Shown piece by piece: positions 9,332 to 55,801 of a DNA stretch of 64,000 nucleotides; position 1 is the stretch's first letter; the number at the start of each line of letters is the position of its first letter. The notes below the pieces were generated by a model. The model was not told the origin of the DNA. It ran no database searches and was given only the letters and a program-made list of their open reading frames with translations. A program made the translations under genes and the position numbers. Where the stretch lies: positions 559,126 to 623,125 of the forward strand of contig BGKB01000009.1 of NCBI GenBank assembly GCA_003116975.1. Direction: 5' to 3'. Source of the stretch: Aurantiochytrium sp. KH105. Taxonomy: Eukaryota; Sar; Bigyra; Thraustochytrida; Thraustochytriidae.

Positions 9332-9572
9332 AGTCTGTCTGTCTGTCTGTTTGCCTGTCTGTCTTTTCGCCTGTCTACACGCCGGGGCGGGCCTGGCGAG
9401 CGGCTGCCGTCACCGAGCCTGCCTGCCTGCCTGCTTGCTTGCGAGCTCGCAACGAACGAGCACAAGCTCGCTCGCTCGCGAGTCGGGCGAGACAGCAAGC
9501 GAGCGTGTCTGCCGCCGGCGGGCGGCCCAGCGGCGCCTCGCAGCGGCCCAGCGCTGCGCCTCGCTCGCTAGC

Positions 9573-9668
9573 AAGCTTGCTTGCTTGCTTGCTCGCTCGC
9601 CGCTGCTCCTCCGAGCTCGGCCTTGCCTTGCCTTGCCTTGCCTTGCTTCGCCTCGCCTCGCCTCGCCT
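9573..9668. repeat. GCTT / CCTTG / CCTCG tandem tract
   Basis: Runs of GCTTGCTT..., then CCTTG units, then CCTCG units. The same unit types recur elsewhere in the window (22600s, 33981-34080, 35460s, 55020s). Confidence 0.7.
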
Positions 9669-12600: not shown

Positions 12601-13300
12601 CTTTTCACGAAATCGTGAGCTGTGGGTGAGGGGGAAAAAGTCGACGGGCTTCCACTGGGAGTAGACGCTTCAAGCTTCATCAATGGGCGCAGTTCCTGCA
12701 GTAAAGGCCAGAAGAACGCGAGGTTGAGGCCTAGCAACGCCAATAATCTCCTGCCCTCCTTCCTACTAGTGCCTAAGGCCACCGCCCTGGTTGCTCTGCA
12801 GCTGCTTGCAGTGCCTTTCACAGACGCTTGAACGGCCACGTGTGGCGGTGGCCGCCAGCGAGCCTGGCTGTTGTCCTGCGACCAACCAACCAACCAATTC
12901 ACGAAACGAACAGCTGGTCTGTCCTTTCTACCTATGACAATGGTGCGAACATCAATGTGCTCAGGGCCGTTCGTGTCGCCTTGCGTTCCAGCCTGCTGCA
13001 GCTGCTGCGAACGAAACGAGCGAAGAAGAAATGAGTGGTTCATGGCGCCGAGACGTATGTCCATCTCCTTTTTTATTGAGGATATTTGCCTGCCTAGCCA
13101 GCCAGCCACCAGGACCAAGCAGCCAGCCCTGCCATCGTTTGTGGCTGCAGCCAGCTGGCTGGTGCTGGTGCGACTTTCGCGCCTGTCGCCCCTGTAGCAA
13201 AGAAGAATCCAGCGACTGCTAGCGAGCGCAAAGATGCAAAGATGCGATGCAAAGCTATGCTGCATGCGATGCTGTCCGTCAGGCTCTCGGTCGGTCTGGG

Positions 13301-13470
<170 letters not shown>

Positions 13471-14143
13471 CCTACACTTCCTGCACCAGGATCTGCCTGC
13501 CTGCCCGCCTCAGCATGCTGCTGCTGGAGGAAAATTTCCACAGCGCCCCGATAAGTCCGCGGGGCTGAGGGAGAAGTCCCGCCGCGTCGATGTGGTGCGC
13601 GGTGGGCAGCTCCACTGTCAGACGGGCAGGGAGTTCTCCTCACGACCACATCAACCGCCAAGGTGCGACTGGGGGGTCGAAAAACTGAGATACCACCTGC
13701 TACATGTTCCTAGAATCACTCTCCCTCCGAGGAGCCTGCGTTCCTCCCTACCGCGAGAGGCAACGATCGCGCGTCGATTTTGCGTACGTTCGAATCGCGC
13801 CGGTTCGTTTTGAGGAGAAAAACCCTCGCCAGCCCGCGACGCGACTGGCACGAGTCGGCGTGGTCTCGCTCCTCCCCCCCCCGCGAGTTGAGTCCACTGC
13901 CTCACGAAGATCTTTCCTCTTGCCCTCCCCGCGTGACCCGGCCGCGCGCGCGAGTCCAAAGCAGGACGGAGGCGGTGGACCGCAGCAAACGCTCGCTCGC
14001 TCGCTCGCTCGCTCGCTCGTTTCACGCGCGCGCGCCCGCTCCGAAAGACAGACAGACAGACGAGCGAAACCGGTGAGAACGTGTTCTGAGATTGCACGAC
14101 CGGAGATGTTTTCTGTGATGCGAAATGCCCGCGCCGTGCGGCC

Positions 14144-14197
14144 GCTGCGCTGGTTGTGGCCGCTGCGCTGGTTGTGGCCGCCGCTGCGCTGGTTGTA
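14144..14197. repeat. 18-bp tandem repeat, three units
   Basis: Three copies of a GCGCTGGTTGTGGCC-type unit, the third with a CCG insertion. Confidence 0.7.
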
Positions 14198-14981
14198 AGC
14201 CTTGGCACAGGTGCAAGGATACTCGGGACAGTCCTGACACAGGCGCTAGTAGCGTCAAGTGCCTCGCTCAGTCGATGGCAGAAGCGGCCAGCTTCCCCTG
14301 GACGGGGTGGCTGGCGGCTCGTTGCTGAAAACTCACTCACCCACCCAACCAAGAAACGTGGTCACGGCCCTCGTGGCGCAAAGGCCTCGCGAAGTTTCGC
14401 AGAGGGCTGCAATTCTGGCGCGGCGCCGCGCGGCCAATCAACTGCAAATTTGGATAAAGAGGAAGGGAGGTGAGACGCAACGCAACGAAACGAAATGAAA
14501 TGGAAACCACGAGCGAGCAATACAAGCACGACCCCAAAAGGAGCGCAGGCAGCAATGAAAACCGAGTGCGGGATGGAAGGGAAGCAAGCAGCCAGCAGCT
14601 CAAAATCCTTCCAAGCTAAACAGCTTTCGCGGAGATGCAAGCAGCTTACTGCTTCCCCCCGCGGGCCAAATCCAAAGACCAGCCCTCGGCGCTTCGCAGG
14701 CCCACGGCGGGTTGCCGGGACTGCGCGAATTACAATCCAGTGGTGGCCGGCGACGCCCTCGCCGCCGGGCCAGCAAGCAGCCACAGCGGCGGGCGGCCAG
14801 GCCACGGCTCGCATACCGAGCCAGCCGTGGCAGGCCGAGACGGGAGAAGCTGAGCCCCCCGCAGCCTCGTTTTGCTCTCAAGGCGGTGTGCCACCAGCCA
14901 GGGGTCAATGGTTCGTTCGTGTGTTCGTTTGGAGGAAAGAAAGCTTGCTTACTTGCTTGCTAGCTAGGTTTAGAAATTCTG

Positions 14982-30014: not shown

Positions 30015-30126
30015 NNNNNNNNNNNNNNNNNNNNNNNNNNNNNNNNNNNNNNNNNNNNNNNNNNNNNNNNNNNNNNNNNNNNNNNNNNNNNNNNNNNNNN
30101 NNNNNNNNNNNNNNNNNNNNNNNNNN
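30015..30126. other. assembly gap (112 N)
   Basis: Run of undetermined bases at a G-homopolymer-rich site. Confidence 1.
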
Positions 30127-39349: not shown

Positions 39350-40593
39350 GCCGGCCGCGTTCGCGGGAGAGGCGCCACGCGGTGGCGCAGCGGCGGCGAG
39401 GATTCTGGATAGCGTGCTCGTCGGAGGCGAAGACGCGACACCGTCGGCACGAGTGTGGCGCTCCGGTCCGGCCGCGCCTGCGAGCGAGCGTGCGTGCTGT
39501 ATCGTGATGTATGTCTCGTATATAACTCGGGCGGTCGGCCGGGTTCGCCCGGGAGAGGAACATACGTGGGGCGGAGGAGGAGGAGGAGGGAGGGAGGAGG
39601 GCGGTCGCAGGCGGTACATCGGGAGTGTCGTCCCCTGGCCGGTCGATCGGTTCAGCTGCGGAGAGGGAAGGAAGGCGCGGGGAGGAGGCGGAGATGCGAG
39701 AGGAAGGTGGCCGAGGGCGGAGAGGACGGCGGGGGGGCGGCGGGGTCGCGCGGCGGAGTTCGGGAGGTCTTGCCTTCGTTCGCGAGGGCGAGGCAGGCTT
39801 GGTTTCGAACTTTGTTGTTGTCTAGTGCTCGTGTCGGAGGGCGCTTCTTCTTTTTTATGATTGGCAGGTTTAAGTTCGTTCTTTTTTTTCTTTCTTTTTT
39901 TCTTTCTTTCTTTTCATTTCTTTTTCTTTTCATTTCATAAAATTATTTTCTTTTCTTTTCTTTTCTTTTTCTTTTTGTTTTGTTTCGTTTTATTTTCGTT
40001 AGTTTTGTGAGGGGGCGTCCGACAAGAGGCGAGGGCTGAATTGCGGTTTTCTTGGAAAGAAACGAAGAAGGAAACCGGGAATCGGAGGAAGGAAGGCAAG
40101 GGAGGGCAGGTGGGGGAAGGAGGGAGAGCCTTTTTGCGACAGCGCCCTGAGAAGTCGTTTCAGCGCGCACGGGCCTCGCAAGTTCAGGTTCGCTCAGCGC
40201 CAAAAGTTCCCTCTTCCCTCCCTGCGATTCGACGACTCTCGCCTCTCGGAGGAGAAAAGAAGTAAAGTAAATAAAGAAAAGAATAGAAAAGAAAGAAAGA
40301 AAGAAAGAAAAAGGAAAGTAAAAGGAAGGGACGCCTGGCGGGTATGGACGATGAAAGAAAGGAAAGGGTGGGAGAGAAAAAGGAATCCGACGGGAAAAGG
40401 AGGAAGGAGCGAACGACGAAAAGAATAGAGAATGAAAAAAGAGAAAGAAAGAATGAGAGAAAGAAAGAGGGAACAGAGGACCGACCGGGACTCGCTTCGC
40501 AGGCGCGCCTCGCCAAACCCGCAACCTCGCAAGCCGCGCCGAGTCCAGAAGCACAAGCACAAGCACGCTTGACCCGAGCCCGACCTCGCGAAG

Positions 40594-42330
40594 ATGGCGC
40601 AGCACCAGACGCAGACGCAGACGCAGGCGCAGCAGCAGCAGCAGCAGAGGGACCTGCTGGGCGCGCTGGGACTCGAGGCGTCGACGCCGCTCCACGCGCA
40701 GCTGCAAATGATGATGCAGCACCAGCAACAGCAACAGCAGCACCAGCACCAGCAGCAGCCCGCGCTCGCGGTCCTGCTTGAGCAGCTGGCACGGGCCCAG
40801 CAGCAGCAGCACCAGCAGCAGCTGAACAGCGGCAAGGCGGACGACGAAGACAAGACCACCACGACCACCTCGACGTCCCTCAAGCGCCCGCTCGAGCGCA
40901 GCGACGCCGTCCTCGAAAAGAAAAAAGTCAAGACCGAGGGAGACAGCAACAGCGACGAGGACCTCAAAAAGACGGGCGCCAAGGACGAAGACGCGGCGGC
41001 CGCCACCAGCCAAAAGCCCCAGAGCGCCAGCCGCCAGCCCAGCCACAACAGCGCGAGCGAGTCCAGCCACGGCATGAGCGGGAGCGAAGACGACGATGAT
41101 GAGGACGACGAGGAAGATGACGAAGAGGAAGCCGGTCAAAAGAGCCGCGGCGGACGCATGAAGGGCCGCTTCTCCCAGAGCGAGCGCCGTCTTCTCTTCA
41201 GCATCATCCGCGAGGACCCTGAGCTCCTCCGCTCCTTCCTGCACCAGCTCAAGCGCAGAATCTGGGACGGCAAATCATGGATGCACGAGATCGGCACCCG
41301 GTTCAACAAGCGCGCAAAGAAGAAGCGCTCCCACGACGCCGTGCGCCACCATCTCAAGCTCCGCCGCCCGCAGCCCACCGACTCGCGCGCCGTTGTCTCC
41401 GCCGAAGAGCAAGAGGTCACGGACTTCCTCCACCTCCTCGAGCACTCGAGCACCTGCTCGCGCCGCGACGCATGCGCTCGCTGCCTCCAGCTCTCGCGCC
41501 TGCGCGTCCGCCGCGGACTCGCGCGCTGCGGATACCCGGGATGCGATAAGTGCGACCCCACGCTGCCCCACGTCCTCGATGACTTTGACGTGCGCTCTCT
41601 CCTTCGCTACACACAGCAGCACGAGCAGCATCGCCACTTTCACCATCAGCAGCAGCAGCGCCACCACCGGCTGCAGCTCTCCACGCTCAACATCACCAAC
41701 CCGGCCCTCGCCGCTTCGATCCGCAAGGCCGACGAGGAAAAGGAAAGACTGCAAAAGCAGCGCCAGGAGCTCGCCAAGCAGCAACAGCAAGTCTTCGATA
41801 CCCTCGGTCCCGCACCGGAGCGCAGGAACTCTACCGGAAGCACCTGCTCTACCACCTCCGTCGCAAGCAACAACCACCCCTCCGCTTCGATGCTGCTCGC
41901 GCAGCAACAGGCCCTCCTCATGCCCAAGTTCCAGCAGCACCAGCAGCAGCTTCAGCTGCCAATTCCCGGTGCCAACACCAACATGGCGGACCTCATCAAG
42001 TTCATCGGCGCCTCCAATGCGGCTCTCCCCGTTGCCACCCCACCGCAACAGCAAAACGAGAGTTCTCACACCGCCACACTTATGCGTCTTCTCCAGGAGC
42101 AGCGCGATCGCCAGGCCATGCTCAGCGCGCTTCTCGCCGATGCGAACGCCACGCGTGCTGCCATGCCCATGACCCCGGTCGGCAGCTTCCCGGGTCTCAA
42201 TTTTGCCGCGTCCAGCAACAACAACTCCGTCAACCCGGATCCCAAGGTCCGCCCGACACCACGCGCATTCTCCGATTTTGAAGTCTCCCTTGCCGAGACC
42301 CTCGCGCAGGCGAGCAGGAAGCAAAACTAA
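40594..42330 (+). CDS. SANT-like plus TAZ-like putative transcription factor, member 1
   Basis: 578 aa from ATG 40594. Residues 1-77 are rich in Gln/His. A basic NLS-like KKKVK (109-113) and an acidic run (about 164-180) precede the conserved core. The SANT-like block (about 191-258) starts GRFSQSERRLLFSII and ends KRSHDAVRHHLKLRR, the same 15-residue motif as in member 2. The zinc-binding-type block (about 280-320) has H-x3-C-x5-C-x2-C-x14-C-x4-C-x2-C with exactly the spacing of member 2. The C-terminal half is Gln/Asn/Ser-rich. Gln-rich flanks, NLS and DNA-binding-like core suggest a transcription regulator, but no target or named family can be given. It is preceded by 7.8 kb without a gene. 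Confidence 0.75.
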   Translation: MAQHQTQTQTQAQQQQQQRDLLGALGLEASTPLHAQLQMMMQHQQQQQQHQHQQQPALAVLLEQLARAQQQQHQQQLNSGKADDEDKTTTTTSTSLKRPLERSDAVLEKKKVKTEGDSNSDEDLKKTGAKDEDAAAATSQKPQSASRQPSHNSASESSHGMSGSEDDDDEDDEEDDEEEAGQKSRGGRMKGRFSQSERRLLFSIIREDPELLRSFLHQLKRRIWDGKSWMHEIGTRFNKRAKKKRSHDAVRHHLKLRRPQPTDSRAVVSAEEQEVTDFLHLLEHSSTCSRRDACARCLQLSRLRVRRGLARCGYPGCDKCDPTLPHVLDDFDVRSLLRYTQQHEQHRHFHHQQQQRHHRLQLSTLNITNPALAASIRKADEEKERLQKQRQELAKQQQQVFDTLGPAPERRNSTGSTCSTTSVASNNHPSASMLLAQQQALLMPKFQQHQQQLQLPIPGANTNMADLIKFIGASNAALPVATPPQQQNESSHTATLMRLLQEQRDRQAMLSALLADANATRAAMPMTPVGSFPGLNFAASSNNNSVNPDPKVRPTPRAFSDFEVSLAETLAQASRKQN

Positions 42331-43093
42331 ATGCCCCTGCTCCTCTGCCGAAATGCACCAACCAGCCAATGACAACTCAAATGGACCGAGTGGCACTGCC
42401 TATACCATGCCTTGGTATGTCATGTCGCCATCCATACATTTACCCAACCTTTTTGACTCGTATATACAAACAACCACATCCGATTCTGTGCCTGCCCTTT
42501 ACTTACGCTTCAACTCCTTGTGCTTGAGTCTATCGCTCGTCTGCTCCGTCGTGCGCTCTTGCCCACGCTTGGCTGTTTCTGCCTGCTTTGCACGATTCCT
42601 TTCCAAGCTCGAAAAGCTCATCACAACAACCACCCCGAAAGTTGCTTCAGAAAAAGTTAGTTAGAGATGGTATACTCCTTCTTCTTGTCTCAGCTGCTCA
42701 AACTATACTCTGCTCTTTCACTGTGCCCGCATACCAGATATGGAGATCCTCAAAAGATGTCGAGACAACCAACAAAGACACTCCATTTTGCAAGCTAAAC
42801 GACTCCCATCTCGCTTCGAATTTCCGCTCTCTTTTCCCCCTTCGGAAAGAAAAACATCAAAATAAGGACAGCATGGCGCAGCCAATACCAAGTGTCTCGC
42901 GCCAGGGCGCAGATTGCGGTATCGAGCTAATGCATCGCCACTTCGAAGCCATCATAGGAACCGTTCCGGGAACGTCGCCTCGGGTCATCTCCGCTATCGA
43001 TCCGTCTCAGTCTTTTGCAAGGTCAATCGACACAGTCGCAATCCCATAACGAGAGCCACCACACACAGAGCAGTCAATCAAAAAACAGCTACA
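42331..43093. other. intergenic region upstream of first MIF gene
   Basis: No gene seen. AT-richer than the upstream region; contains the 3' flank of the regulator gene and the promoter and leader of the MIF gene. Confidence 0.5.
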
Positions 43094-43453
43094 ATGCCTT
43101 TTCTTCGCGTTCTCACCAATGTAGCTTTCTCTGCGCAGGACAAGATGAAATTTGCGAATGCATTGACCAAGGTCTCCGCGGAAGCCCTCGCCAAACCTGT
43201 TCCCACTGTCATGATCAGCATCGAGACGAATGCCGATGGTCTCGTCTTTGCAGGGACTCCTGACCCTTGTGCCATGGTACACATCCAAGGCGTTGGCTGC
43301 GAGTTTTCCAAAGCTCTTGAACCCGTCGTGCTTGCCATAACAGACCACACCAAAATCCCAGAGCCTCGCATCTTTCTAAACCACATCGACTTTCAGCCCA
43401 GCGAATGGGCCATGGGCCGTCGCACCATTGCCGAGATTCGTGCCAAAGCTTGA
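43094..43453 (+). CDS. MIF: MIF-family tautomerase, copy 1
   Basis: 119 aa, full length for macrophage migration inhibitory factor and D-dopachrome tautomerase. Met is followed by Pro, which becomes the catalytic N-terminal base after Met removal. A family-type Lys lies in the LAKP segment (MIF Lys32 position), and the DPCAMVHIQGVG strand and a C-terminal FLNHIDFQPSEWAMGRRT block follow the trimer-forming fold. The family tautomerises phenylpyruvate-like model substrates; natural substrates in protists are unknown. It is the first element of the MIF-dynamin cluster, with dynamin A starting 534 bp downstream on the same strand. Confidence 0.92.
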   Translation: MPFLRVLTNVAFSAQDKMKFANALTKVSAEALAKPVPTVMISIETNADGLVFAGTPDPCAMVHIQGVGCEFSKALEPVVLAITDHTKIPEPRIFLNHIDFQPSEWAMGRRTIAEIRAKA

Positions 43454-43987
43454 CTGACAGTGAGTAGATGATTGCATGGGCTTGCTGCTTCAAAGTCATA
43501 CGCGTTGTCTTCGCCCCATCGCCCTCTTAGTCCTCCCGGCATCTTGCATACGATTTAACATGCATTGGCGAATCGAGTATACCTCGCATTTGAGAGCTGG
43601 CTCCCAAAGGAGAACAGAGTTGCGTTACATGCTAACGCTGACCGCGCCGGGATCTGCTATCGCATTATCCGCCTTGTGTACCTGCTTCAACAAGACAGAT
43701 CAAAGTTTTTATCATAGATAGTATGAAGGTAAGGATGCGGGGGTTACTTTACAACTTACAGCGTCTCACACTTACCCCAAATTAGTGAAATGTTCTTCGC
43801 AATCATTGTATTCCCTGAAGATCTATAAAGAAGTTCTTAAGTACCCCACTTGCCCGGCACGTGCACGACAAGAAAAAGCATTTCTGCTCAGGAAAACCAA
43901 TTCTTCAACTAGAAGAACTGTCGGCTTCGACACGAGAGAGTGTATACCGATCGACAACAAGGAGGCCTGCCTGCCTCCACGGGAAAG
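43454..43987. other. upstream region of dynamin A
   Basis: No gene. Sequence from about 43725 to the dynamin start is homologous to 46655-46927 upstream of dynamin B, so the promoter was duplicated together with the gene. Confidence 0.6.
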
Positions 43988-46126
43988 ATGGCCGACGCCG
44001 CGAGCGAGAGCAGCTGGACGCGCGTGGACAGGACCGCCTTCGAGGTTCTTGCTATTGACGGAAGCGCCAGGGTCACAGACGCAGACGTCCGAGCCGCGTA
44101 CGATGAGCAAGCAAGCAAGGTGACCGACGATCAGCAGCGCCAGCGCCTTCGCGAGGCGTTCCAGACGATCAAGACAGAAGCTTCTCGTGAAGGCTATCGT
44201 CTCGCGCTTTCAGTCTTTGACAATCAAAGCCACGATGGCTTCTTTGATGACGCACAAGTCGGACCCCGAGTAGATCCCGTACATAACAGAGGTATTGCTG
44301 GCATCCTCTGTGCCCCAGACGCGCCATATGCTAGGCTGCTCCAGGCAGCTATGCAGGTCCAAGGCAGCTTCGAGCTCGAGCTTCCTCAGATTGTCGTCTG
44401 CGGCACTGAGAGCCAAGGAAAGTCCTCAACTCTTGAGCGCATCGCCATGCGAGACATCTTTCCACGCGACCGCAGATTCTGCACGCGGCTGCCGATACGT
44501 CTCATGCTACGCACGAGTCGGCATCAGAACCAGGTCACCATTCGTGTCAAGGACCTCAACACGAACGAGATTACGCGCGAGACCGAGCCGCAAATCTGTG
44601 TGACGGGAGACCAGACCGACGAACCATTTTCTTCACAGGTCTCGGAGCTCATTCGCGAGTTCATCAGCGACGAGCATCCCGACGATAAAGGCCGTAAGGT
44701 GATCGTTGACCGCGAAGTTCAGATCGAGATCCGAGCTCCGTCGGTGCCGACAATTGACCTGGTCGATCTCCCTGGCATAGTGGCAGCACCCGAACATGCC
44801 AGGCAGGCCACGACGTGCATTACACAACGCATGCTGGCTCAAGAGCACGTTTTGGTGCTAGCTGTGGTCTCTGCGCGATCTGAAGCGCTCAACAGCAACG
44901 GCATCTGGCCTTTGCTGCACGAAGCCAACAAGCCATCGATTGTGGTATTGACTCGGGTCGATTTGGAGGGAGGTGAAGAGGATCTCCGCGCGCGACTTGA
45001 GCGCGACCCAGCGGTCCTGCCTGATGATGTTCGGATCGACTTTGTCGTTCCTGTGGCAAACCGCGATACGCGAAAGCACATCGACATGGATAGTCTACGA
45101 GACTCGTATACTCGAGAAGAGACCGCGCTGCGGGCCGCATGCGAGATGGAAGGCATGGAGTATGATGTGACGAAGCATGGCATGCCTGGTGTTCTGCACG
45201 CCCTGAACGAGATGATCCGCGCGTACATGCGCGACGAGTGGGTGGATGCAGAGCTTCGGCGGTGTAGAGAGTCCCTCAAGGTACGCTTCAGCGATCTCTG
45301 GGATCTCGGTACCACACCTGGAGCCATCAAGCCGGAAGCGATCGTGTCTGAGATTAAGAAAGGTCTCGATGCACTCATGGATATGCCAACATCAGAGTTG
45401 CTCGAGGACATGCAGCTCCCTATCTGCTTCAAGTTTATATTGGATTTTCCGAAGAGCGCACCTCTCGTGCGCAGAGCATACCTCATCAAAAATCATGAGG
45501 AGGAGGTCAAAAACCACATCGTAGCTCTCACGTACTCTGCGTGGGAGAACTTCAAGGCACTCGTGATGCGCAAGGTGCTCGATGAATCTAGAATCCCGCT
45601 CAAAATTGGGCGTTTCCCCTTCATCAGAGAGCATATCAAAAGTACCCTGGAAGACAACTTTCGCGCGGCGAGCGACTCAATTATCGAGGAAGCATTTCTC
45701 CGTACAATTTCGCAGCTGAAGGATGCTCTCACGACCAGAAGTGATCAAGTTGATACTGACGAGATTTGGTCGCAAGTGTACGAGTCTGTGAGCACGAGTC
45801 TTATTTGCAGATTTTCAACCGAGGCTTTGTCTGATAGACTCTACGATACCATCGACCTTGATCTCAGTGAGGAGCCCGGCGTCGCCGCAAGGCGTGCGCA
45901 TATCGAGGAGCAGATCGATGCAATTTACCGCACCGTGCAAGTGCTTCATGAGCTGCGTGGCCTCGACGATATTCCCAACGATTTTCAAGGCGCGAAACAC
46001 CTTATCAAGGGCGGTGTCACCGACGAAATATTGGTATTGCTTGAAGCCAGAACTATCCACACGAGCTTCCTCTTTGGCACCATCAAGACTGTCTTGCAAG
46101 AGGCAGGTATTGAATGTACTGCTTAA
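43988..46126 (+). CDS. dynamin-like GTPase A with HPD-less J-like N-terminus
   Basis: Large GTPase of the dynamin superfamily, which remodels membranes or assembles on targets. 712 aa from ATG 43988. Residues about 17-75 look like a J domain (FEVLAI start, helix with DVRAAYDEQ, helix with LREAFQTIK, final REGYRLAL) but TDDQ stands where HPD should be. GTPase motifs: G1 GTESQGKSS (139-147), a Thr in the switch region (CTRLP, T166), G3 DLPG (260-263), G4 TRVD (322-325). The remainder (about 400-712) is a helical stalk and GED-like region. No PH, Pro-rich or transmembrane segment is seen, so the architecture is closer to Mx-type dynamins. Residues 1-467 are nearly identical to dynamin B. Confidence 0.88.
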   Translation: MADAASESSWTRVDRTAFEVLAIDGSARVTDADVRAAYDEQASKVTDDQQRQRLREAFQTIKTEASREGYRLALSVFDNQSHDGFFDDAQVGPRVDPVHNRGIAGILCAPDAPYARLLQAAMQVQGSFELELPQIVVCGTESQGKSSTLERIAMRDIFPRDRRFCTRLPIRLMLRTSRHQNQVTIRVKDLNTNEITRETEPQICVTGDQTDEPFSSQVSELIREFISDEHPDDKGRKVIVDREVQIEIRAPSVPTIDLVDLPGIVAAPEHARQATTCITQRMLAQEHVLVLAVVSARSEALNSNGIWPLLHEANKPSIVVLTRVDLEGGEEDLRARLERDPAVLPDDVRIDFVVPVANRDTRKHIDMDSLRDSYTREETALRAACEMEGMEYDVTKHGMPGVLHALNEMIRAYMRDEWVDAELRRCRESLKVRFSDLWDLGTTPGAIKPEAIVSEIKKGLDALMDMPTSELLEDMQLPICFKFILDFPKSAPLVRRAYLIKNHEEEVKNHIVALTYSAWENFKALVMRKVLDESRIPLKIGRFPFIREHIKSTLEDNFRAASDSIIEEAFLRTISQLKDALTTRSDQVDTDEIWSQVYESVSTSLICRFSTEALSDRLYDTIDLDLSEEPGVAARRAHIEEQIDAIYRTVQVLHELRGLDDIPNDFQGAKHLIKGGVTDEILVLLEARTIHTSFLFGTIKTVLQEAGIECTA

Positions 46127-46550
46127 CCCCTCTTCCGATGCTGATGACTGGTGGATCGAAGCAACAAGATAAATTGCCTTCAGCTACAAGACTTTATCAA
46201 CTCATCGTCAAGTTTGCTCCGCGCCAAAGTCCACACGCGATTAAGGATGGTCACCTTTTGAAACCAAAAGTCAATTTTCTCTCATTCACCGATCGCTCTC
46301 GCATCCCTTTCCTCGTTAATAGGGACGAACTTCATCCTCTTTATTCATTTCTCAACATTGTTGACCTCCCCTCATTACTCCCACCTAGAGCAGTGCGCAG
46401 AGAGCAAGACGTGCTTTGAATTTCTGCTGGTCGCGTCCGCGTTCCTGAAACCTCAGTCTCGCGGGCATACGTCTGTGCTCTCGCTCTCGCACGCACATGC
46501 AGACGCACACGTACACGCACGCTCGCGCGCAAGCAGCTACAACTTCGAGG
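46127..46550. other. 3' flank of dynamin A
   Basis: No gene. Similar to 49651-50230, which lies between the orphan dynamin 3' piece and the intact second MIF gene. This supports duplication of a dynamin-spacer-MIF unit. Confidence 0.6.
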
Positions 46551-46625
46551 ATGCCTTACATCGAGGTCACATGCGGCGTGGAGTGTGGAGCTGGACATGG
46601 TGACCAAGACGCAGGCTACCTCCGA
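46551..46625 (+). pseudogene. MIF gene remnant (5' piece only)
   Basis: Begins ATGCCTTACATC like the MIF gene at 50231 and follows it for the first ten or so codons (MPYIEVTCGVE). It then has indels that shift the frame, keeps a recognisable ACCAAGACG...GCTACCTCCGA stretch, and stops resembling MIF. It lies at the same place relative to dynamin A as the intact MIF does to the dynamin 3' piece at 49405-49650. Confidence 0.8.
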
Positions 46626-46927
46626 CGTAAGCCCACCCCGATGCTTCCGTGAAACGAAGGTACGGGGGTTATGTTACACCTTGTGACGTAGCATACTTCC
46701 CTAACATAGAACATAGGGAAATGTTTTGGTTGCACATGAATTATACCACACTGGCATTCTTAGAAAATCTCGAAAGAAGTTCTATAGTGTCCCATTCTTC
46801 TCCACGGCACGTGCCACATGCACGACAAAAGGAAAACCAATTCTTCAACTCGAAGAACTGTCGGCTTCGACACGAGAGAGTGTATACCGATCGACAACAA
46901 GAAGGCCTGCCTGCCTCCACGGGAAAG
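46626..46927. other. upstream region of dynamin B
   Basis: Homologous to the region upstream of dynamin A. The dynamin frame stays open here with ATGs at 46721 and 46736, but the start shared with dynamin A (46928) is preferred. Confidence 0.5.
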
Positions 46928-49405
46928 ATGGCCGACGCCGCGAGCGAGAGCAGCTGGACGCGCGTGGACAGGACCGCCTTCGAGGTTCTTGCTATTGACG
47001 GAAGCGCCAGGGTCACAGACCCAGACGTCCGAGCCGCGTACGTTAAGCAAGCAAGCAAGGTGACCGACGATCAGCAGCGCCAGCGCCTTCGCGAGGCGTT
47101 CCAGACGATCAAGACAGAAGCTTCTCGTGAAGGCTATCGTCTCGCGCTTTCAGTCTTTGACAATCAAAGCCAAGATGGATTCTTTGATGACGCACAAGTC
47201 GGACCCCGAGTAGATCCCGTACATAACAGAGGTATTGCTGGCATCCTCTGTGCCCCAGACGCGCCATATGCTAGGCTGCTCCAGGCAGCTATGCAGGTCC
47301 AAGGTAGCTTCGAGCTCGAGCTTCCTCAGATTGTCGTCTGCGGCACTGAGAGCCAAGGAAAGTCCTCGACTCTTGAGCGCATCGCCATGCGAGACATCTT
47401 TCCACGCGACCGCAGATTCTGCACGCGGCTGCCGATACGTCTCATGCTACGCACGAGTCGGCATCAGAACCAGGTCACCATTCGTGTCAAGGACCTCAAC
47501 ACGAACGAGATTACGCGCGAGACCGAGCCGCAAATCTGTGTGACGGGAGACCAGACCGACGAACCATTTTCTTCACAGGTCTCGGAGCTCATTCGCGAGT
47601 TCATCAGCGACGAGCATCCCGACGATAAAGGCCGTAAGGTGATCGTTGACCGCGAAGTTCAGATCGAGATCCGAGCTCCGTCGGTGCCGACAATTGACCT
47701 GGTCGATCTCCCTGGCATAGTGGCAGCACCCGAACATGCCAGGCAGGCCACGACGTGCATTACACAACGCATGCTGGCTCAAGAGCACGTTTTGGTGCTA
47801 GCTGTGGTCTCTGCGCGATCTGAAGCGCTCAACAGCAACGGCATCTGGCCTTTGCTGCACGAAGCCAACAAGCCATCGATTGTGGTATTGACTCGGGTCG
47901 ATTTGGAGGGTGGCGAAGAGAATCTCCGCGCGCGACTTGAGCGCGACCCAGCGGTCATGCCTGATGATGTACGGATCGACTTTGTCGTTCCTGTGGCAAA
48001 CCGCGATACGCGAAAGCACATCGACATGGATAGTCTACGAGACTCGTATACTCGAGAAGAGACCGCGCTGCGGGCCGCATGCGAGATGGAAGGCATGGAG
48101 TATGATGTGACGAAGCATGGCATGCCTGGTGTTCTGCACGCCCTGAACGAGATGATCCGCGCGTACATGCGCGACGAGTGGGTGGATGCAGAGCTTCGGC
48201 GGTGTAGAGAGTCCCTCAAGGTACGCTTCAGCGATCTCTGGGATCTCGGTACCACACCTGGAGCCATCAAGCCGGAAGCGATCGTGTCTGAGATTAAGAA
48301 AGGTCTCGATGCACTCATGGATATGCCAACGCCAAGGCTGCTGAGGAAAGTCGAGTCCTCCACCAAACTGAGGTTCTTGCTCGGGTTTCCGGAAAGTGCT
48401 CCCCTCCTGCGAAGGGCACATCTTCTCAGAGATTACACGGAGAAACTTAAACATCACGTTATAGCTCTCACAGACTTCGCGTGGGAAAAATTCATGCAGC
48501 TGGTGGTGCGCGAGGTGCTCGACAGGTCAGAGCTTCCGCTCAAGATTGGTCGCTTCTCCATCGTTCGAGAGCGCATCAGAGTCACTATGGAAGAATCTTT
48601 TCATGCTGCACGAAACGTGATTATCGAGCAAGCTTATAAACGCGCTTCCGGTCAGCTTCATGATGCCCTTACAACAAAGTATGACCAGATTGATCCGCAC
48701 CAAATTTGGTCCTTGATATACGAGTCAGTGATCGTAGGCCTCCTTTTCTCGTTCTCGGCTGCAGCTTTAACCGAAAATCTCTACTCTTACTTTGAGTTGG
48801 AGCTCAGGGAAGAGCCTGAGATGGCTTCAAAGCGTTCAAACATCGTGACGCAAATCGATGCCATTTATCGCACCGTGCGGGTAGTGCAGGAGCTTCAGGA
48901 CCTTGAATACATTCCGGACGATTTTAGTCGGGCAAAATACCTCATCTCGGGAGGTGTCACTGACAACGTGCAGGCGATGATTGACGACCAGACTTTTCCA
49001 AAGGACTTTCTGTACGGGACAACTGCGTTGATCTTAAACCAGATCAGCAGTCACGAGGGTGAAAATGATTCCAACGTCGACGAGGAAAACAAAGTGGAAG
49101 CTGGCGAGGCTGCCTCGGTCCCAGAAAAGCTCTGCAACCATACAGAAAAGGATGAAAAGGACGCCGGTAACAAGAAGCAGGTAGTCACCAAGGACGCCGG
49201 TAACAAGCAGCAGATAGTCACCAAGGACGCCGGTAACAAGCAGCAGGTAGTCACCAAGGAAGTCAAAATTGCGAAGGTTTTTATGTGTGCAGCAAGGGCG
49301 GTTGCCACGAAGATTGTGAAGAGGAAGAAGAATAGAAACAAGAACTTTCTCAAAAAATTGACACATCATGCAAATTCAAAAATTTACGAGAAAGTCGGTT
49401 CTTAG
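46928..49405 (+). CDS. dynamin-like GTPase B, different stalk and basic tail
   Basis: 825 aa from ATG 46928. Residues 1-467 differ from dynamin A at only about six positions and carry the same J-like segment and GTPase motifs (GTESQGKSS, DLPG, TRVD). After MDMPT (about 48330) the two proteins change abruptly to roughly alignable but strongly diverged stalks. B then adds a C-terminal extension: an acidic Glu/Asn/Asp stretch, three 11-residue units (DAGNK[K/Q]Q[V/I]VTK, 49160-49258), and a very basic tail (VKRKKNRNKNFLKK), possibly for membrane or nucleic-acid contact. The stop codon sits exactly where a leftover A-type GED sequence resumes. Sharp divergence after near-identity implies gene conversion or recombination. 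Confidence 0.87.
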   Translation: MADAASESSWTRVDRTAFEVLAIDGSARVTDPDVRAAYVKQASKVTDDQQRQRLREAFQTIKTEASREGYRLALSVFDNQSQDGFFDDAQVGPRVDPVHNRGIAGILCAPDAPYARLLQAAMQVQGSFELELPQIVVCGTESQGKSSTLERIAMRDIFPRDRRFCTRLPIRLMLRTSRHQNQVTIRVKDLNTNEITRETEPQICVTGDQTDEPFSSQVSELIREFISDEHPDDKGRKVIVDREVQIEIRAPSVPTIDLVDLPGIVAAPEHARQATTCITQRMLAQEHVLVLAVVSARSEALNSNGIWPLLHEANKPSIVVLTRVDLEGGEENLRARLERDPAVMPDDVRIDFVVPVANRDTRKHIDMDSLRDSYTREETALRAACEMEGMEYDVTKHGMPGVLHALNEMIRAYMRDEWVDAELRRCRESLKVRFSDLWDLGTTPGAIKPEAIVSEIKKGLDALMDMPTPRLLRKVESSTKLRFLLGFPESAPLLRRAHLLRDYTEKLKHHVIALTDFAWEKFMQLVVREVLDRSELPLKIGRFSIVRERIRVTMEESFHAARNVIIEQAYKRASGQLHDALTTKYDQIDPHQIWSLIYESVIVGLLFSFSAAALTENLYSYFELELREEPEMASKRSNIVTQIDAIYRTVRVVQELQDLEYIPDDFSRAKYLISGGVTDNVQAMIDDQTFPKDFLYGTTALILNQISSHEGENDSNVDEENKVEAGEAASVPEKLCNHTEKDEKDAGNKKQVVTKDAGNKQQIVTKDAGNKQQVVTKEVKIAKVFMCAARAVATKIVKRKKNRNKNFLKKLTHHANSKIYEKVGS
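49160..49258. repeat. 33-bp coding repeat, three units
   Basis: Three tandem 33-bp units in the dynamin B tail, differing at only a few bases. Confidence 0.9.
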
Positions 49406-49650
49406 AGCAAATCGATGCCATTTACCGCACCGTGCAAGTGCTTCAAGAGCTGCGTGGCCTCGACGATCTCCCCGACGATTTTCAAGGTGCGAAAGGTCTC
49501 ATTAAGGGTGGTGTCACCGACGAAATATTGGTACTGCTTGAAGCCAGAATTCTTCACGCTAGTTTCCTCTTTGGCACCATCGAGACTGTCTTGCAAGAGG
49601 CAGGTATCGAATTTACTGGCCCCCTATTTTGGGATGATGGCAGTTGGTAG
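49405..49650 (+). pseudogene. orphan 3' end of an A-type dynamin gene
   Basis: From the stop codon of dynamin B the sequence reads EQIDAIYRTVQVLQELRGL and onward, closely matching the last 70 or so residues of dynamin A (from about 45910 to 46115), then runs about eight codons further to a stop at 49650. No start or upstream domains of its own. It is the remainder of the gene end that dynamin B's present C-terminus displaced. Confidence 0.88.
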
Positions 49651-50230
49651 ACCGCACGAACACATGCAAATTCCTTCATCTAGCTAGGGCTCCATCGACT
49701 CATCGACATGTTTGCTTCGCGTAGAAGTCTACACGTCTCACTCAAGATGTTCACGTAACAAAACCGAAATTCAATATGTTCTCCTTCACCGATCGTTCCT
49801 GTATCCCTTTTCTCGTTTATAGGAACGAAGTGCGTCCTCTATTCTTCATTTCTCAACGATGTCGCCCTCCCCTCGTTACTGACGCCCTGATTGAATTAGA
49901 TCCCGCGCAGAGAGCGAGACATGCTTTCAAAGATCTGCAAGTTTAGCCTGTGCACGCGCGAGTTGACTCTTCAGAGTTCTCCTCAAGCTCGGGTGAAGCG
50001 TCCGTGTTCCCGAAACAAGACTTCAAAAGAAAGCGGCGCCTGTGTGAGAGCGAGCAAACCTGCTATCCTCTCGTCAGCCAAACTGCGATCTTTTTTCTGC
50101 GAACGCTAGCACGCTCATACCAGAGCTCTCGCTTCCGCACGCACGCACGTGCTCTCGCGCTCGCACACGTACACGCGCACGCACACTCACACGCACGCTC
50201 GCGCAAGCAAGCAAGCAAGCAACTTCAAGG
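49651..50230. other. spacer upstream of second MIF gene
   Basis: No gene. Homologous to 46127-46550. Ends in CACG/CGCA and GCAA repeats just before the MIF start. Confidence 0.6.
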
Positions 50231-50593
50231 ATGCCTTACATCAAGGTTACGTGCAGCGTGGAGCTGGACAAGGCGACCAAGACGGAGGTTGCCATGGCCG
50301 TCACCAAGGCTACCTCCGAGGGCTTTGGCAAGCCCACCTCGGCCGTCATGGTCAGCGTCGACACCTCAGAGTGCCTCATGTTTGCGGAGTCCATGGATCC
50401 CTGCGCCGTCGTCAATGTCCAGGGTATCGGCGGCGAGCTTTCTCAGGTCCTCAAGCTTCTCTCGGCCGCCGTGCACGAGCACACCAAGATTCCTGAAAAC
50501 CGCATCTTTGTCAACATGGTTAGTTTTGAGGCCACCTTTTGGGGTAGAGGACAGCTCACCATTGCAGAGCATCGTGCAGCTGCGGCGCCGTAA
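50231..50593 (+). CDS. MIF: MIF-family tautomerase, copy 2
   Basis: 120 aa, intact. Met-Pro start giving the catalytic N-terminal proline, GFGKP with the family Lys, MDPCAVVNVQGIGG strand, and a C-terminal RIFVNMVSFEATFWGRGQLTIAE block aligned with copy 1. Its first codons and leader are closely related to the broken MIF remnant at 46551, more than to copy 1, so it belongs to the duplicated dynamin-MIF unit. Confidence 0.92.
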   Translation: MPYIKVTCSVELDKATKTEVAMAVTKATSEGFGKPTSAVMVSVDTSECLMFAESMDPCAVVNVQGIGGELSQVLKLLSAAVHEHTKIPENRIFVNMVSFEATFWGRGQLTIAEHRAAAAP

Positions 50594-51181
50594 GAAGTCC
50601 CCAATCATTGCAAAGCAATCTCAGTTTCTATTCTTTCACAGCGAAGTTCTGCGCGATTGTCCCATCCCGCGTTTTCCAGCAGCGATCGGCTCGAAAATGT
50701 AGCACAACCATCTTGTACTCTCGGAACAATCACGTTTCGTTTGCATCGTCGGAGCTCCAGATCCGTGTATTTATCGCTCAAACGATGAATGTTTACATTT
50801 CAGTCTTGCGAATCAGTGTGCTGCAGGTAGCATGATCAACCCATCTTCCTTGCCGACCTTGCAGTCAGCTCCTCTCTCGCATCTCTCGGCGGTGCGCAGA
50901 GGTCTTCTTCTCGATTTGCATTGTACAGAGAACCGGCCTGCCTCCCTCTCATGAGTTGGACGTATACATCAGACTTGCCCGCTCGAGCACTCGCACTGCC
51001 CTCGCGTATGCCCTTGCTCTTCTCGAAGATTTCCCAACGCACGCGTCGGCATCGCTGTGCCCTCTCCAGCTGCTGGCTGATCCGGCGACCACCGAGCTAT
51101 CTCATCTCTCTCTGCTCAGAACATGAAGCAGAGAGCACACTCCGAATCGGAGGACCACAGAACCCCAATAAGAACGAGCTC
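50594..51181. other. intergenic region, MIF copy 2 to HscB
   Basis: No gene supported. The HscB frame stays open from about 50921 but without an ATG before 51182 that would fit a presequence (an ATG at 51008 in frame is preceded and followed by non-conserved sequence). Confidence 0.45.
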
Positions 51182-51302
51182 ATGATGTTGCGCGCAAGCT
51201 GGACGGCGGCACGGCGCGCCGCGACGGCGGCGAGCCCCAGCCCGCTGGGCGGGTCCGCGCCGCGCACAGGCGCTCTCGTCGCCGCGACGCGCTCCGCGCC
51301 GA

Positions 51303-51333
<31 letters not shown>

Positions 51334-52000
51334 CCTGGGCGGCCATGGAGGCGCTGCGCTTCGGGCAAACTTCGCGACGACTTCAGCGTCGACCGCCGAG
51401 GAGAAGAAGAAGCCGTGCTGGAACTGCAGCGCAGCGGTAGGCTCTGCGGAGCTATTCTGCGACAAGTGTGAGCACCTGCTAGCCCCTGACGAGGAGGCGA
51501 GTCACTTTGAGGTTCTCGGACTCGAGGAGTCCTTTGACGTCGACATCAAAAAGCTGGAAAAGGACTTTTGGTCGCTGCAAAAGAAACTCCATCCGGACCG
51601 CTTTGGGTACAGACACGAGACAGAGCAGGACTTCTCGGCAGAGCACTCGTCGCGAGTCAATGATGCCTACAAGGTGCTGAAAAGCCCCATCGATCGGGCA
51701 ATTTACATGCTCGAGAAGCGCGGTGTCACTGCACTAAGCGAGGGCGGATCATCCGACGTAGACCCGGCAGTCCTCATGAACGTAATGGAGACACGCGAGG
51801 AGCTTGCAGATGCCGAGACAAGCGAAGAGCTTTCACGTCTCGAAACCGTCGCGCGCGATGATGAGGATCGCCTTATTGCTCAAATTTCCGACGCCTTTGC
51901 GCGCGATGACCTCGAAACAGCTACACGTGCCGCCATCGAGCTGCGATATGCGACCAAGCTGCGTGAAGAGGTGGAGGCAAAGAGAGTTTCTCAAATGTGA
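51182..52000 (+). CDS. HSCB: iron-sulfur cluster co-chaperone HscB/Jac1
   Basis: Mitochondrial J-protein that delivers the Fe-S scaffold protein to Hsp70 and stimulates its ATPase. ATG at 51182 (a second follows at once), 272 aa. Residues 1-70 are rich in Ala/Arg/Ser without acids, a mitochondrial presequence. A metazoan-type zinc finger follows (C79, C82, C93, C96; CWNC and CDKC), then a J domain with LHPDRFG (HPD at 137-139) and HSSRVNDAYKVL, then the C-terminal three-helix scaffold-binding domain (MNVMETREELADAE and following). It is convergent with mitochondrial Hsp70, its expected partner. Confidence 0.95.
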
Positions 52001-52350
52001 GGCAATTGCCATGAATTTTGGGGACAAAAGTTTTTCTCTTTTCCGGACTTACGAATTGTATTTTGTTTACTTCTCAGGCTTCTAAACTTTGAATGGCTGA
52101 CGGCGTGATTGACGCACAACATTCATCCAGACTCTATGCTCATCAAGAGATGGAGCCAAGGAGAGTTTCGCAAATGTTCTAAAAGCAATCGCCATGAATT
52201 TGAGAGAGACAAAGTTTTTTCTTTTCCGGACGTACAAATTGAATTTTGGGTGACTATCTTTATTTACAACTCACACATCAGGCTCTTGAACTTTGAATGG
52301 CTGATGGCATGATCGACGAAACAACATTCATTTGGACAACATGCTCATCT
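51971..52350. repeat. imperfect tandem duplication of HscB 3' end
   Basis: The block 51971-52148, covering the last ten codons and 3' flank of HscB, recurs in diverged form at about 52150-52350 (GGAGCCAAGGAGAGTTTCGC, ...GCCATGAATT, ...CTTTTCCGGAC, ...CTTTGAATGGCTGA). Confidence 0.8.
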
Positions 52351-52631
52351 CATGCTGATACAGTTTTTGGAAAGAGAAGAGCTATTACTTTTTCCTCTCA
52401 TGTCCACTGTACATTGCTCGAGCTCGCGGTCCGAGTATGAGCCGCGTTCTGACAAAAGCTTCCTTTTCCAAGTCTCTCTTCGCCAGGTCGGTGAATCAAA
52501 ATTGGAAGAATACTGCCTGGCTCGCGCGACAAAGAGCGGTACGAAACAAGTGAGTTTGGCAAGAACAATAGCAAAAAGAAGCGGGACGGACACGGGTTCG
52601 ACTATCTGGAAAAAAAAAATAAGGCTGCTAT

Positions 52632-54713
52632 TTACTTCTTCTTGTCATCATCCTTCTTCTCCTCGTACTCGGCGTCCTTGACATTCTCCTTGGACTGGTC
52701 CTGCTGGGCGTCCTGGGACTGGCCAGCGCCGCCCTGGCCGTAGATGGCCGAGCCGATCTTCATGGAAGCCTGCTGGAGAGTGTCCTTCTTGGCGCGAAGG
52801 TCATCGAGAACCTTGGGGTCAGCCTCGAGAGCGGCGCGCATCTCCTTGATGGCGGTCTCGACGGCCTCCTTATCCTCGGCGGAGAGCTTGTCGCCGTGCT
52901 CGGAGAGGGTCTTCTCGGTCGAGTAGCAGAGAGCATCGGCATCGTTGGTGATGTCAATGGTCTCCTTGCGCTCCTTATCGGCGGAGGCGTTGGCCTCGGC
53001 GTCCTTGACCATCTGCTCGATCTCGTCGTCGGAAAGACCGCCCGAGCTCTGGATGGTGATCTGCTGCTCCTTGCCGGTGGCCTTGTCCTTGGCCGAGACG
53101 TTGCAGATGCCGTTGGCGTCGATGTCGAAGGTGACCTCGATCTGGGGGATGCCGCGGGGAGCGGGGGGGATGCCGACGAGCTCGAAGTTTCCGAGGAGCT
53201 TGTTGTCGACAGCCATCTCGCGCTCGCCCTGGAGGACCTTGATGCTGACCTGCGACTGGTTGTCGGCGGCGGTGGAGAAGACCTGCGACTTCTTGGTGGG
53301 GATGGTGGTGTTGCGGTTGATGAGACGGGTGAAGACGCCGCCGAGGGTCTCAATACCGAGCGAGAGCGGGGTCACATCGAGGAGGAGAATGTCCTTGACG
53401 TCACCGCGCAGGACACCACCCTGGATGGCGGCGCCGAGAGCGACGACCTCATCGGGGTTGACGTTCTTGGAGGGCTTCTTGGAGAAGACAGTCTCGACAG
53501 TGTCCTGGACCTTGGGCATGCGAGTCATGCCACCAACAAGGATGACCTCGTCGATCTCGCTGGTGGACACGCCGGCATCGCTCATGGCCTTCTTGCAGGG
53601 GCTGACGGTGCGCTCGACGAGCTTGGAAACGAGGTTCTCGAACTGGGAACGGGTGATCTTGACGTTCAAGTGCTTGGGGCCCGAGGCGTCGGCCGTGATG
53701 AAGGGCAGGTTGACGTCGGTCTGCTTGAGGGCATCGAGCTCGCGCTTGGCCTTCTCGGCGGCCTCGCGGAGACGCTGGGTCGCGAGGCTGTCGGAGCTGA
53801 GGTCAATGCCGGTGTCCTTCTTGAAGGCGTCGCTAATGTGCTGCATGAGGGCCTCGTCGAAGTCCTCGCCACCGAGAACAGTGTCACCGTTGGTGGCCTT
53901 GACCTCAAAGACACCGCCGGAGATCTCGAGGATGGAGACATCAAAGGTACCGCCACCGAGATCGTAGACGGCGATGAGGGCGTCATCGGACTTGTCGCAG
54001 CCGTAGGCAAGGGCGGCGGCGGTGGGCTCGTTGATGATGCGCAGGACGTCGAGGCCGGCGATCTTGCCAGCGTCCTTGGTGGCCTGGCGCTGCGAATCGT
54101 TAAAGTAGGCGGGCACGGTGATGACGGCCTGCTTGGGGGGGCTACCGAGGAAGGCCTGGGCGGTCTCCTTCATCTTGTTGAGGACCTTGCTGCCAATCTG
54201 GGAGGGAGAGTACTCCTTGCCGGAGCTGCCGGCAACCCAGGCGTCGCCGTTCTTGGCCTTGACGATCTTGTAGGGGACCATGTCAATGACCTTCTGGACC
54301 TCGGGGCCATCGAACGACTGGCCGATGAGACGCTTGGTGGCGTAAAAGGTGTTCTCCGGGTTGGTGACGGCCTGGCGCTTGGCGGGCATGCCGACGAGCT
54401 CCTCGCCGTCCTCGAGGATGGCCACGATGGAGGGCGTGGTGCGGGCACCCTCAGAGTTCTCGAGCACGCGGGCGTTCTTGCCGTCCATGGTGGCGACGCA
54501 CGAGTTGGTCGTACCGAGATCGATGCCGATCACGTCGCCGGTCACCTTGCCGGCGAATCCGCGCTGGGGGGCCATCTGCCACGCGCCGGGCTGCATGGCC
54601 AGCGTCTGCGCGGCGCCGGCGTCGCGCTTGCCGAGCGACCGGGCGCCCATGTGCAGTCCGCGGGCGCCGCCGGCGCTGCGCGCGGCGCGCCGGGCGAGCA
54701 TGTTGCCCAGCAT
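52632..54713 (-). CDS. HSPA9: mitochondrial Hsp70 (mortalin/Ssc1)
   Basis: ATP-driven chaperone of the mitochondrial matrix, for protein import, folding and Fe-S cluster transfer. 693 aa from ATG 54713. A basic, acid-poor presequence spans about residues 1-55 ([12 protein letters not shown]...RGFAG). The nucleotide-binding domain has [42 protein letters not shown], the [12 protein letters not shown] phosphate-binding motif and [13 protein letters not shown]. The substrate-binding domain has [15 protein letters not shown] and [12 protein letters not shown]; the helical lid ends in an acidic and Lys-rich tail. Length and presequence fit the mitochondrial class; no ER retention or cytosolic EEVD end. 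Confidence 0.97.
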
Positions 54714-55217
54714 CTCTCTACCTCGCTCTCTGCCTCGCTCGCGCGGGTCCTCGCTCGCTCGCTCGCTCGCGTCCTCTCGCTCGCGTCCTCTCGCTCGGCG
54801 ACGCAGGCACGCTCGCTCCGTTCGGGGTCTACGCGCCTCTACGCGCCGCGCCGCGCCGCCGCACTTGCGCGCGCATTCTCCACTTGCGCGCGCATTCCCC
54901 ACTTGCGCCGCCGCCATAGTCCACTTCGCCGCTGCCTCCGAGCCGCCCCGCCAAGTCCACAATCCCCGCCGCTGCTTCACAGGGAAACACGATTCAAAAA
55001 AACAAAAAAAAATCCAAAAACTCGCCTCGCCTCGCCTCGCCTCGCCTCGCCTCGCTCCTCCCTCTCGCCCCAGCCCTCCGCGCGCGCCCTCCCCGCCGCA
55101 GCGCAGCGCAGCGCAGCGCCAGGCAAGCAGGCGGGCGGGCAGGCAGGCAGGCAGGCAGGCAGGCGGCGAGGCGGGGCGAGGCGAGGCGGGGCGGGGCCGC
55201 CCCTGCGAGGCGCAGCA

Positions 55218-55230
55218 GAAGCTTCGAGAA
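55218..55230. promoter_or_regulatory. perfect three-unit heat-shock element
   Basis: GAAGCTTCGAGAA fits GAAnnTTCnnGAA exactly, 505 bp upstream of the mitochondrial Hsp70 start codon. Heat-shock factor binds such inverted GAA arrays. It may be functional or chance in GC-rich DNA. Confidence 0.5.
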
Positions 55231-55801
55231 GAACCGCGGCTCCGGCGCCTGGCGGAACGCGCAGGAACGGCGCCGGCAATGGCTGGCTGCGAGAGCGCCG
55301 CGACCCGGGGGTTGACGGCATGTGAATTAACACGGGGCCGGCAGAGGCGGGAATTTCGGTCGAGAGAGACACCGACTGCACGGGACCGCGCGCCGGGGTT
55401 TCGCGAATACTCTGAAAAGGCGTGCGCGGATGCGCATGAAATCCACCCTGCGGAGGTGGAGAAGGACCGCGAGGACGCGCAGCAGCAGTGCAGAGGGAGA
55501 GAGATGTTGTTTTTTCGAGAAGCTGCGCTGCGTGGGTCTTCGCATGCACGGCGGATGTCCGGTCCCAGGGCGGCTCAGCGCGTGCGAGTATGGTGGTGTG
55601 GCTGGCCAGGGAGGGAAATGGAGGGTGCTCACACGCAGGCAGGCTTGCGGGTTGCCGAGATGACAGCGCCAAAAGTGATGCCAGAATCCAAGAAAAGAAA
55701 AGAAGAGGAACGAAGGAAAGAGCCTCATCAGAAGGGAATGAAAGAATGAAGGAAAGAAAAGCCCGCCACTTTCGCCGTGGCTGGCAGCTGGCTGCAGCGA
55801 T

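Follow-up and report, generated by a model that had tools for sequence, protein, structure and literature searches.

The window analysed here, 64,000 nucleotides (nt) of Aurantiochytrium sp. KH105 (assembly GCA_003116975.1; 76,034,492 bases in 367 contigs), corresponds to positions 559126-623125 of contig BGKB01000009.1, further referred to as C9, and contains a compact array in which two genes for dynamin-type GTPases, dynA and dynB, stand between two intact genes of the MIF family (Table 1). All elements are read from one strand in the order MIF1, dynA, broken MIF, dynB, orphan dynamin end of A type and intact MIF2, and this order agrees with the one given in the original prediction. The broken MIF carries, according to the alignment, a 7-nt insertion near its start. 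Since many of the genes searched for occur as pairs on two contigs, the assembly looks diploid with both haplotypes retained, and bases 1-20000 of contig C165 were taken as comparison sequence for the second haplotype. Its array consists of MIF1 (6334-6693), dyn1 (7210-11337; 1375 amino acids), dyn2 (12083-14248; 721 amino acids, A type) and MIF2 (14814-15176). Collinearity of the two contigs covers C165 3174-8624 and window 39875-45402 (92.4% identity) on one side of the variable part and C165 14003-19982 and window 49405-55449 (93.5%) on the other, two more pieces further left matching at about 82%. Segmental duplication was rejected as the source of this pair because the flanks are collinear on both sides and many other genes are also paired; the two contigs may, alternatively, be homeologues of a hybrid. 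Genome size and a canonical dynamin with middle domain and GED mark the genome as eukaryotic. Matches to a fatty-acid synthase of PfaA type, divided among several genes, agree weakly with a thraustochytrid: the two best places score 930 bits against a model cut-off of 1010, and the same model gives sub-threshold hits in 11 of 14 prokaryotes used as controls. The sample is one individual and one assembly, the locus is compared on C9 and C165, and counts of family members obtained by genome searches are lower bounds.

Table 1. Elements of the MIF-dynamin array in the window (positions of the 64,000-nt stretch)
Feature	Position	Strand	Basis
MIF1, intact MIF-family gene, 119 amino acids, Pro at position 2	43094..43453	+	Pfam MIF 43.3 bits
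Start of repeated unit and dynA upstream region	43739..43987	+	C165 alignment from 11828
Homogenised tract: 97 bp leader and codons 1-467; dynB counterpart 46831-48330	43891..45390	+	
dynA, 712 amino acids, GTPase half and A-type C-terminal half	43988..46126	+	Dynamin_N 72.7 bits
Spacer 1, dynA to MIF2 remnant	46127..46550	+	Match to spacer 2
MIF2-type remnant, 33 codons, then stop	46551..46652	+	Alignment
dynB upstream region, divergent relative to those of dynA, C165 dyn1 and C165 dyn2	46664..46927	+	C165 alignment from 6955
dynB, 825 amino acids, GTPase half, B-type C-terminal half and basic tail	46928..49405	+	Dynamin_N 71.5 bits
Orphan 3′ end of an A-type dynamin, corresponding to the C165 dyn2 end	49405..49650	+	Sequence identity
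Spacer 2, orphan end to MIF2	49651..50230	+	92.2% to C165 spacer
MIF2, intact MIF-family gene, 120 amino acids, Pro at position 2	50231..50593	+	Pfam MIF 39.8 bits

Both dynamins of the window pass the Pfam cut-off for Dynamin_N (27 bits), and 8 of 8 paralogues and alleles carry GTPase motifs G1-G3. Sequence searches detected neither Dynamin_M nor GED at E values up to 10 in dynA, dynB or their C-terminal halves; both domains are present in L049, a Drp-type protein encoded in the same genome. When the C-terminal halves were compared as profiles with an alignment of L049, L051 and L052, no match emerged either. Among structures in the PDB, Drp1, Vps1 and dynamin give the GTPase half its best scores (60 bits for Drp1) and Mx a weak one (23.5 bits for Mx2), the same order being obtained with a profile of seven family members (dynamin A 54.7 bits, Mx2 23.5 bits). 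These scores, together with the missing Dynamin_M and GED, lend no support to the earlier description of the proteins as Mx-like if descent is meant. Their designation as J-like was not confirmed either: no DnaJ match was found in the N-termini of three paralogues, and the HPD motif is absent from the N-terminal segment of the paralogue on contig C35, which resembles Pfam RPT (E 3.7e-5; 23.9 bits, below the cut-off of 28.2). NCBIfam added nothing useful, with a faint match of HscB to dynB (E 0.37), and a PADLOC scan of four proteins, using a library built for prokaryotes, returned one hit at E 0.026 and no match to a defence system.

The MIF proteins pass the Pfam MIF cut-off (22 bits) and share 43% amino acid identity. 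A catalytic proline following the initial methionine and an active-site lysine characterize the MIF/tautomerase superfamily, and P2 and K34 are invariant in MIF1, MIF2 and the C165 copy of MIF1. The CxxC motif, which belongs to animal MIF and is not defining for the whole family, is absent from the MIF1 and MIF2 proteins. Between C9 and C165 the alleles of MIF1 differ by 14 nt and 3 amino acids, and those of MIF2 by 5 nt and no amino acids. Scans for relatives produced stretches fitting the peptide patterns and no confirmed relative: 3 in viral contigs for the dynamin GTPase half, 24 in viral and 44 in prokaryotic contigs for the alignment of seven dynamins, and 97 and 70 in the two scans of these collections with the MIF alignment. 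Such scans need short conserved peptides, and the collections hold few eukaryotes and may exclude records close to the genome of the window, so that they are silent on the adjacency of MIF and dynamin genes in related protists.

The proposal that the array was built by duplication of a unit and recombination has good support, and comparison with the second haplotype sharpens it. The two spacers match each other, as predicted: blastn aligns 45908-46420 with 49405-49930 (77.6% over 531 columns, E 9.7e-112, dynamin ends included) and 46475-46615 with 50149-50288 (80.3% over 147 columns, E 3.2e-29), and the end-to-end identity is 63.5% (395 aligned and 214 gap columns). Similarity of the regions upstream of dynA and dynB also stands (70.0% over 280 columns), rising to only 2 mismatches within the last 97 base pairs (bp) before ATG; the dynA region is 87.2% and 85.4% identical to those of C165 dyn1 and dyn2, and the dynB region 70.0%, 70.2% and 73.5% identical to those of dynA, dyn1 and dyn2. 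The composition of the unit needs correction: promoter, dynamin, spacer and MIF are indeed repeated, but only the start of a MIF2-type gene lies inside the unit, and MIF1 is not part of it. Because spacer 2 is 92.2% identical to its C165 counterpart (552 columns) while spacer 1 reaches only 63.5% and 62.2% to these two, the duplication of the unit is dated by these identities to a time before the haplotypes split. The orphan end is closest to C165 dyn2 (90.7% over 246 columns, against 87.2% over 219 to dynA) and adjoins spacer 2 and MIF2 as dyn2 does, and the gene that once stood next to MIF2 would therefore have been of A type. The homology of this end begins with the final base of the dynB stop codon (49405), so that the junction falls within this codon. 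Treating the difference between the A-type C-terminal halves of dynA and C165 dyn2 as allelic was rejected, since the comparisons of spacers and orphan end make these genes paralogues.

The four array genes were further compared with the other two loci of the family, located on C21/C68 and C35/C161, and their two halves were found to have different histories. Over codons 1-430 (1290 sites), 62 of 62 two-against-two sites join dynA with dynB and dyn1 with dyn2, no other grouping being met, and over codons 467-700 (702 sites) 76 of 97 such sites join dynA with dyn2, leaving 11 for dynA with dyn1 and 10 for dynA with dynB. Maximum-likelihood trees of the halves conflict with strong support. The 5′-half tree sets dynA and dynB apart from the rest (100/100) and unites dyn1 with dyn2 (97.7/99); the 3′-half tree unites dynA with C165 dyn2 (100/100), so that A-type genes group across haplotypes, and sets the ends of types B and C amid the sequences of the other loci (91.8/88 and 84/80). 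Synonymous divergence (dS) between the two dynamins of one haplotype amounts to 0.00-0.05 in codons 1-430 and reaches about 2 in the C-terminal half, and between haplotypes codons 1-430 show dS of 0.14-0.20, compared to 0.05-0.10 for allelic pairs at the other two loci over the same stretch. In codons 467-700 dynA and dynB retain 49.6% amino acid identity, and generally divergence between the C-terminal halves of one haplotype equals that found between separate loci. The switch is abrupt: on C9, 12 mismatches in 1403 coding bases are followed by a break at 45391/48331 (codon 468), and on C165, 9 mismatches, a divergent patch and 2 more mismatches precede the break at nt 1406 (codon 469), the final breaks thus nearly coinciding in the two haplotypes. 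In a permutation test covering 534 polymorphic sites, none of 5000 shuffles per pair reached the observed runs of agreement (39 for dynA/dynB, 44 for dyn1/dyn2); since this test treats sites as exchangeable, it demonstrates unevenness and not conversion by itself. Judged from these patterns, the 5′ halves were homogenised within each haplotype after the haplotypes had split.

Beyond the break, one diploid assembly contains three types of C-terminal ends. Besides the A type, these are the B type of dynB with its basic tail (net charge +17 over the last 80 residues), the DNA of which (49021-49404) was found at a single place in the genome, and the C type of C165 dyn1, where the GTPase half common to the array dynamins is followed by 14 DUF4116 stretches; a genome search for DUF4116 gave 10 places, all of them within dyn1. 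The DUF4116 part yielded 11 pattern stretches and no confirmed relative in viral contigs, a collection with few eukaryotes. Grouping of the B and C ends among other loci, together with the breaks at codons 468 and 469, suggests exchange of modules and not drift alone, and the C-terminal ends were probably replaced as modules. A plausible order of events would start from unit duplication before the haplotype split, after which gene conversion would make the leader and GTPase half alike within each haplotype up to about codon 468. dynB would occupy the place of a former A-type gene, as C165 dyn2 still does, with A-type codons from about 468 to 640 giving way on C9 to the B-type end and basic tail in what we infer to be a single replacement event, and with the A-type end left behind as orphan; C165 dyn1 may represent the same engine joined to the C-type end. 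We regard it as rather probable, from comparison of the two haplotypes, that two conserved MIF genes here enclose a dynamin array which varies between haplotypes, with homogenised 5′ halves and replaced C-terminal modules.

The strongest competitor is a simple birth-and-death process among tandem duplicates in which conversion is a side effect: the GTPase half would stay alike through constraint and a length sufficient for pairing, the C-terminal halves would drift, and the variation would have no function of its own. We give this possibility a substantial chance, somewhat short of even, as the MIF2 remnant and the orphan end resemble debris and the ratio of nonsynonymous to synonymous divergence (dN/dS) stays below 1 for all usable segments and pairs (maximum 0.67) save for codons 1-121 of dynA/dynB (1.23, very few changes). 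That the B and C ends sort with other loci and apart from the A type, and that the final breaks lie at codon 468 in one haplotype and 469 in the other, suggests more than drift alone. Several further observations weigh against the variable array with replaceable modules. In the C-terminal half dN/dS is 0.17-0.41 in the 15 pairs compared, with no excess of amino acid over silent changes; genome searches found no donor for B- or C-type ends elsewhere in the genome; and in the permutation test the pair dynA/dyn2 also reached p 0.025, the other three pairs giving p 0.07-0.12. Motif G4, which usually has lysine at the respective position, reads TRVD with arginine in all eight sequences (dynA, dynB and six paralogues or alleles), and the AlphaFold2 model of the two window dynamins was unusable, with a mean predicted local distance difference test (pLDDT) score of 37.8. 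To the same side belong two features of the C165 tract, namely the divergent patch at nt 1274-1312 inside it and its start at the unit border, 257 bp before ATG.

This last feature touches the mode of homogenisation, for which gene conversion is inferred here. Recent haplotype-specific partial duplications, by which a new 5′ half became attached to pre-existing 3′ ends, would explain the C165 tract as well as conversion does, because it begins at the unit border. The C9 tract, however, lies between diverged stretches (70.0% identity upstream and, at the amino acid level, 49.6% downstream), a pattern that conversion predicts and that favours it there, and we consider partial duplication unlikely as the general cause of near-identical 5′ halves.

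Even less credit can be given to the idea that selection keeps MIF and dynamin together as a functional pair, for instance as a defence cluster. It agrees with the presence of intact MIF1 and MIF2 on either side of the array in both haplotypes. MIF, however, adjoins only one of the three loci of this dynamin family, none being found near C21/C68 or C35/C161. A genome search for the MIF family gave six places, four at the array locus and one each on C11 and C50, and none of the 26 dynamin places found in the genome is on C11 or C50. Besides, variation is concentrated in the dynamins and almost absent from the MIFs, and a functional pairing is improbable. The MIF genes are most likely, as their sequences and distribution suggest, conserved neighbours, MIF2 having been caught in the duplication. 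Open-licence literature yielded no account of dynamin fused to DUF4116 or clustered with MIF. An assembly or polishing artefact, which near-identical tracts favour, is the least credible option of all, given an array region free of N (present in the window only at 30015-30126 and 35367), two dynamins in each haplotype, collinear flanks and scattered differences persisting within dynA/dynB and dyn1/dyn2.

Some observations on the surroundings are worth recording. Just past MIF2 lie, adjacent to each other on both haplotypes, frames that read by eye like the co-chaperone HscB (50921-52000, + strand) and mitochondrial Hsp70 (52632-54980, − strand), which are functional partners; between these two chaperone-like genes there is a 41-bp direct repeat (52074-52114 and 52278-52318, 85% identical, starts 204 bp apart). 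Upstream of MIF1, a glutamine- and histidine-rich frame of 578 amino acids (40594-42330, + strand) has a C165 copy of 573 amino acids with repeat tracts differing in length. Elsewhere in the genome a second dynamin-type family is represented by L064 (C219:47310) and L065 (C162:144064), in apparent allelic position, and by the tandem copies L066 (C270:1149) and L067 (C270:5050). The proteins of L064 and L065 are 60% identical, those of the neighbouring genes L051 and L052 92%, and L066 and L067 89%; perhaps this family is another fast-changing dynamin locus.

As to the meaning of the array, by analogy the GTPase half might serve as a constant engine and the C-terminal half as a changeable targeting part, acting in cell-autonomous defence or self/non-self recognition and resembling Mx in the way of working; this we put forward tentatively, plain birth and death being at least as likely. 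Still more speculative is the fuller version, in which the protist would possess its own variable locus of innate defence or recognition, with an engine kept uniform by conversion and interchangeable recognition ends of three types (one being a solenoid of DUF4116 repeats); it would have evolved separately from Mx under the same evolutionary rule. If the C-terminal halves are targeting parts, the array would provide a separate case of the mammalian Mx pattern in a far-removed eukaryote, with entire modules differing between the haplotypes of a single individual. For protists the array is a concrete, testable candidate for a locus of variable defence or recognition, and even with no such function it would offer a clean natural case of conversion limited to one half of a gene.

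Compared with known systems, the MIF genes of the array are ordinary in themselves: they share with the eukaryotic family the single MIF domain and proline at position 2, recent duplications confined to particular clades have been described for this family (PMC6826473), and the place beside dynamins is their sole unusual point. DUF4116 repeat proteins (PF13475) have been modelled as alpha-solenoids (PMC8078820); the likeness consists in the 14 repeats of C165 dyn1, and the difference in their fusion to a dynamin GTPase, in one allele only of this genome. With the eukaryotic dynamin superfamily the array shares the Dynamin_N GTPase and the occurrence of several lineages per eukaryote. A survey of 2025 reports Mx-like dynamins in most eukaryotic supergroups and four lineages common to eukaryotes and giant viruses (PMC11789081), whereas no relative of the array family was found in the viral contigs searched. 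The closest parallel is given by the antiviral dynamins MxA and MxB of mammals. The array dynamins differ from them in giving no match to Dynamin_M or GED, in a GTPase nearer to Drp1 and Vps1, in C-terminal ends of three types, one with DUF4116 repeats, and in being known from sequence alone. The converted part of the Mx genes is also shorter than the array tract, which spans the whole GTPase half, and this length tells against the parallel. What both have in common (PMC4687636 for Mx) is that conversion between paralogues is confined to the GTPase end while the rest of each gene keeps its own history.

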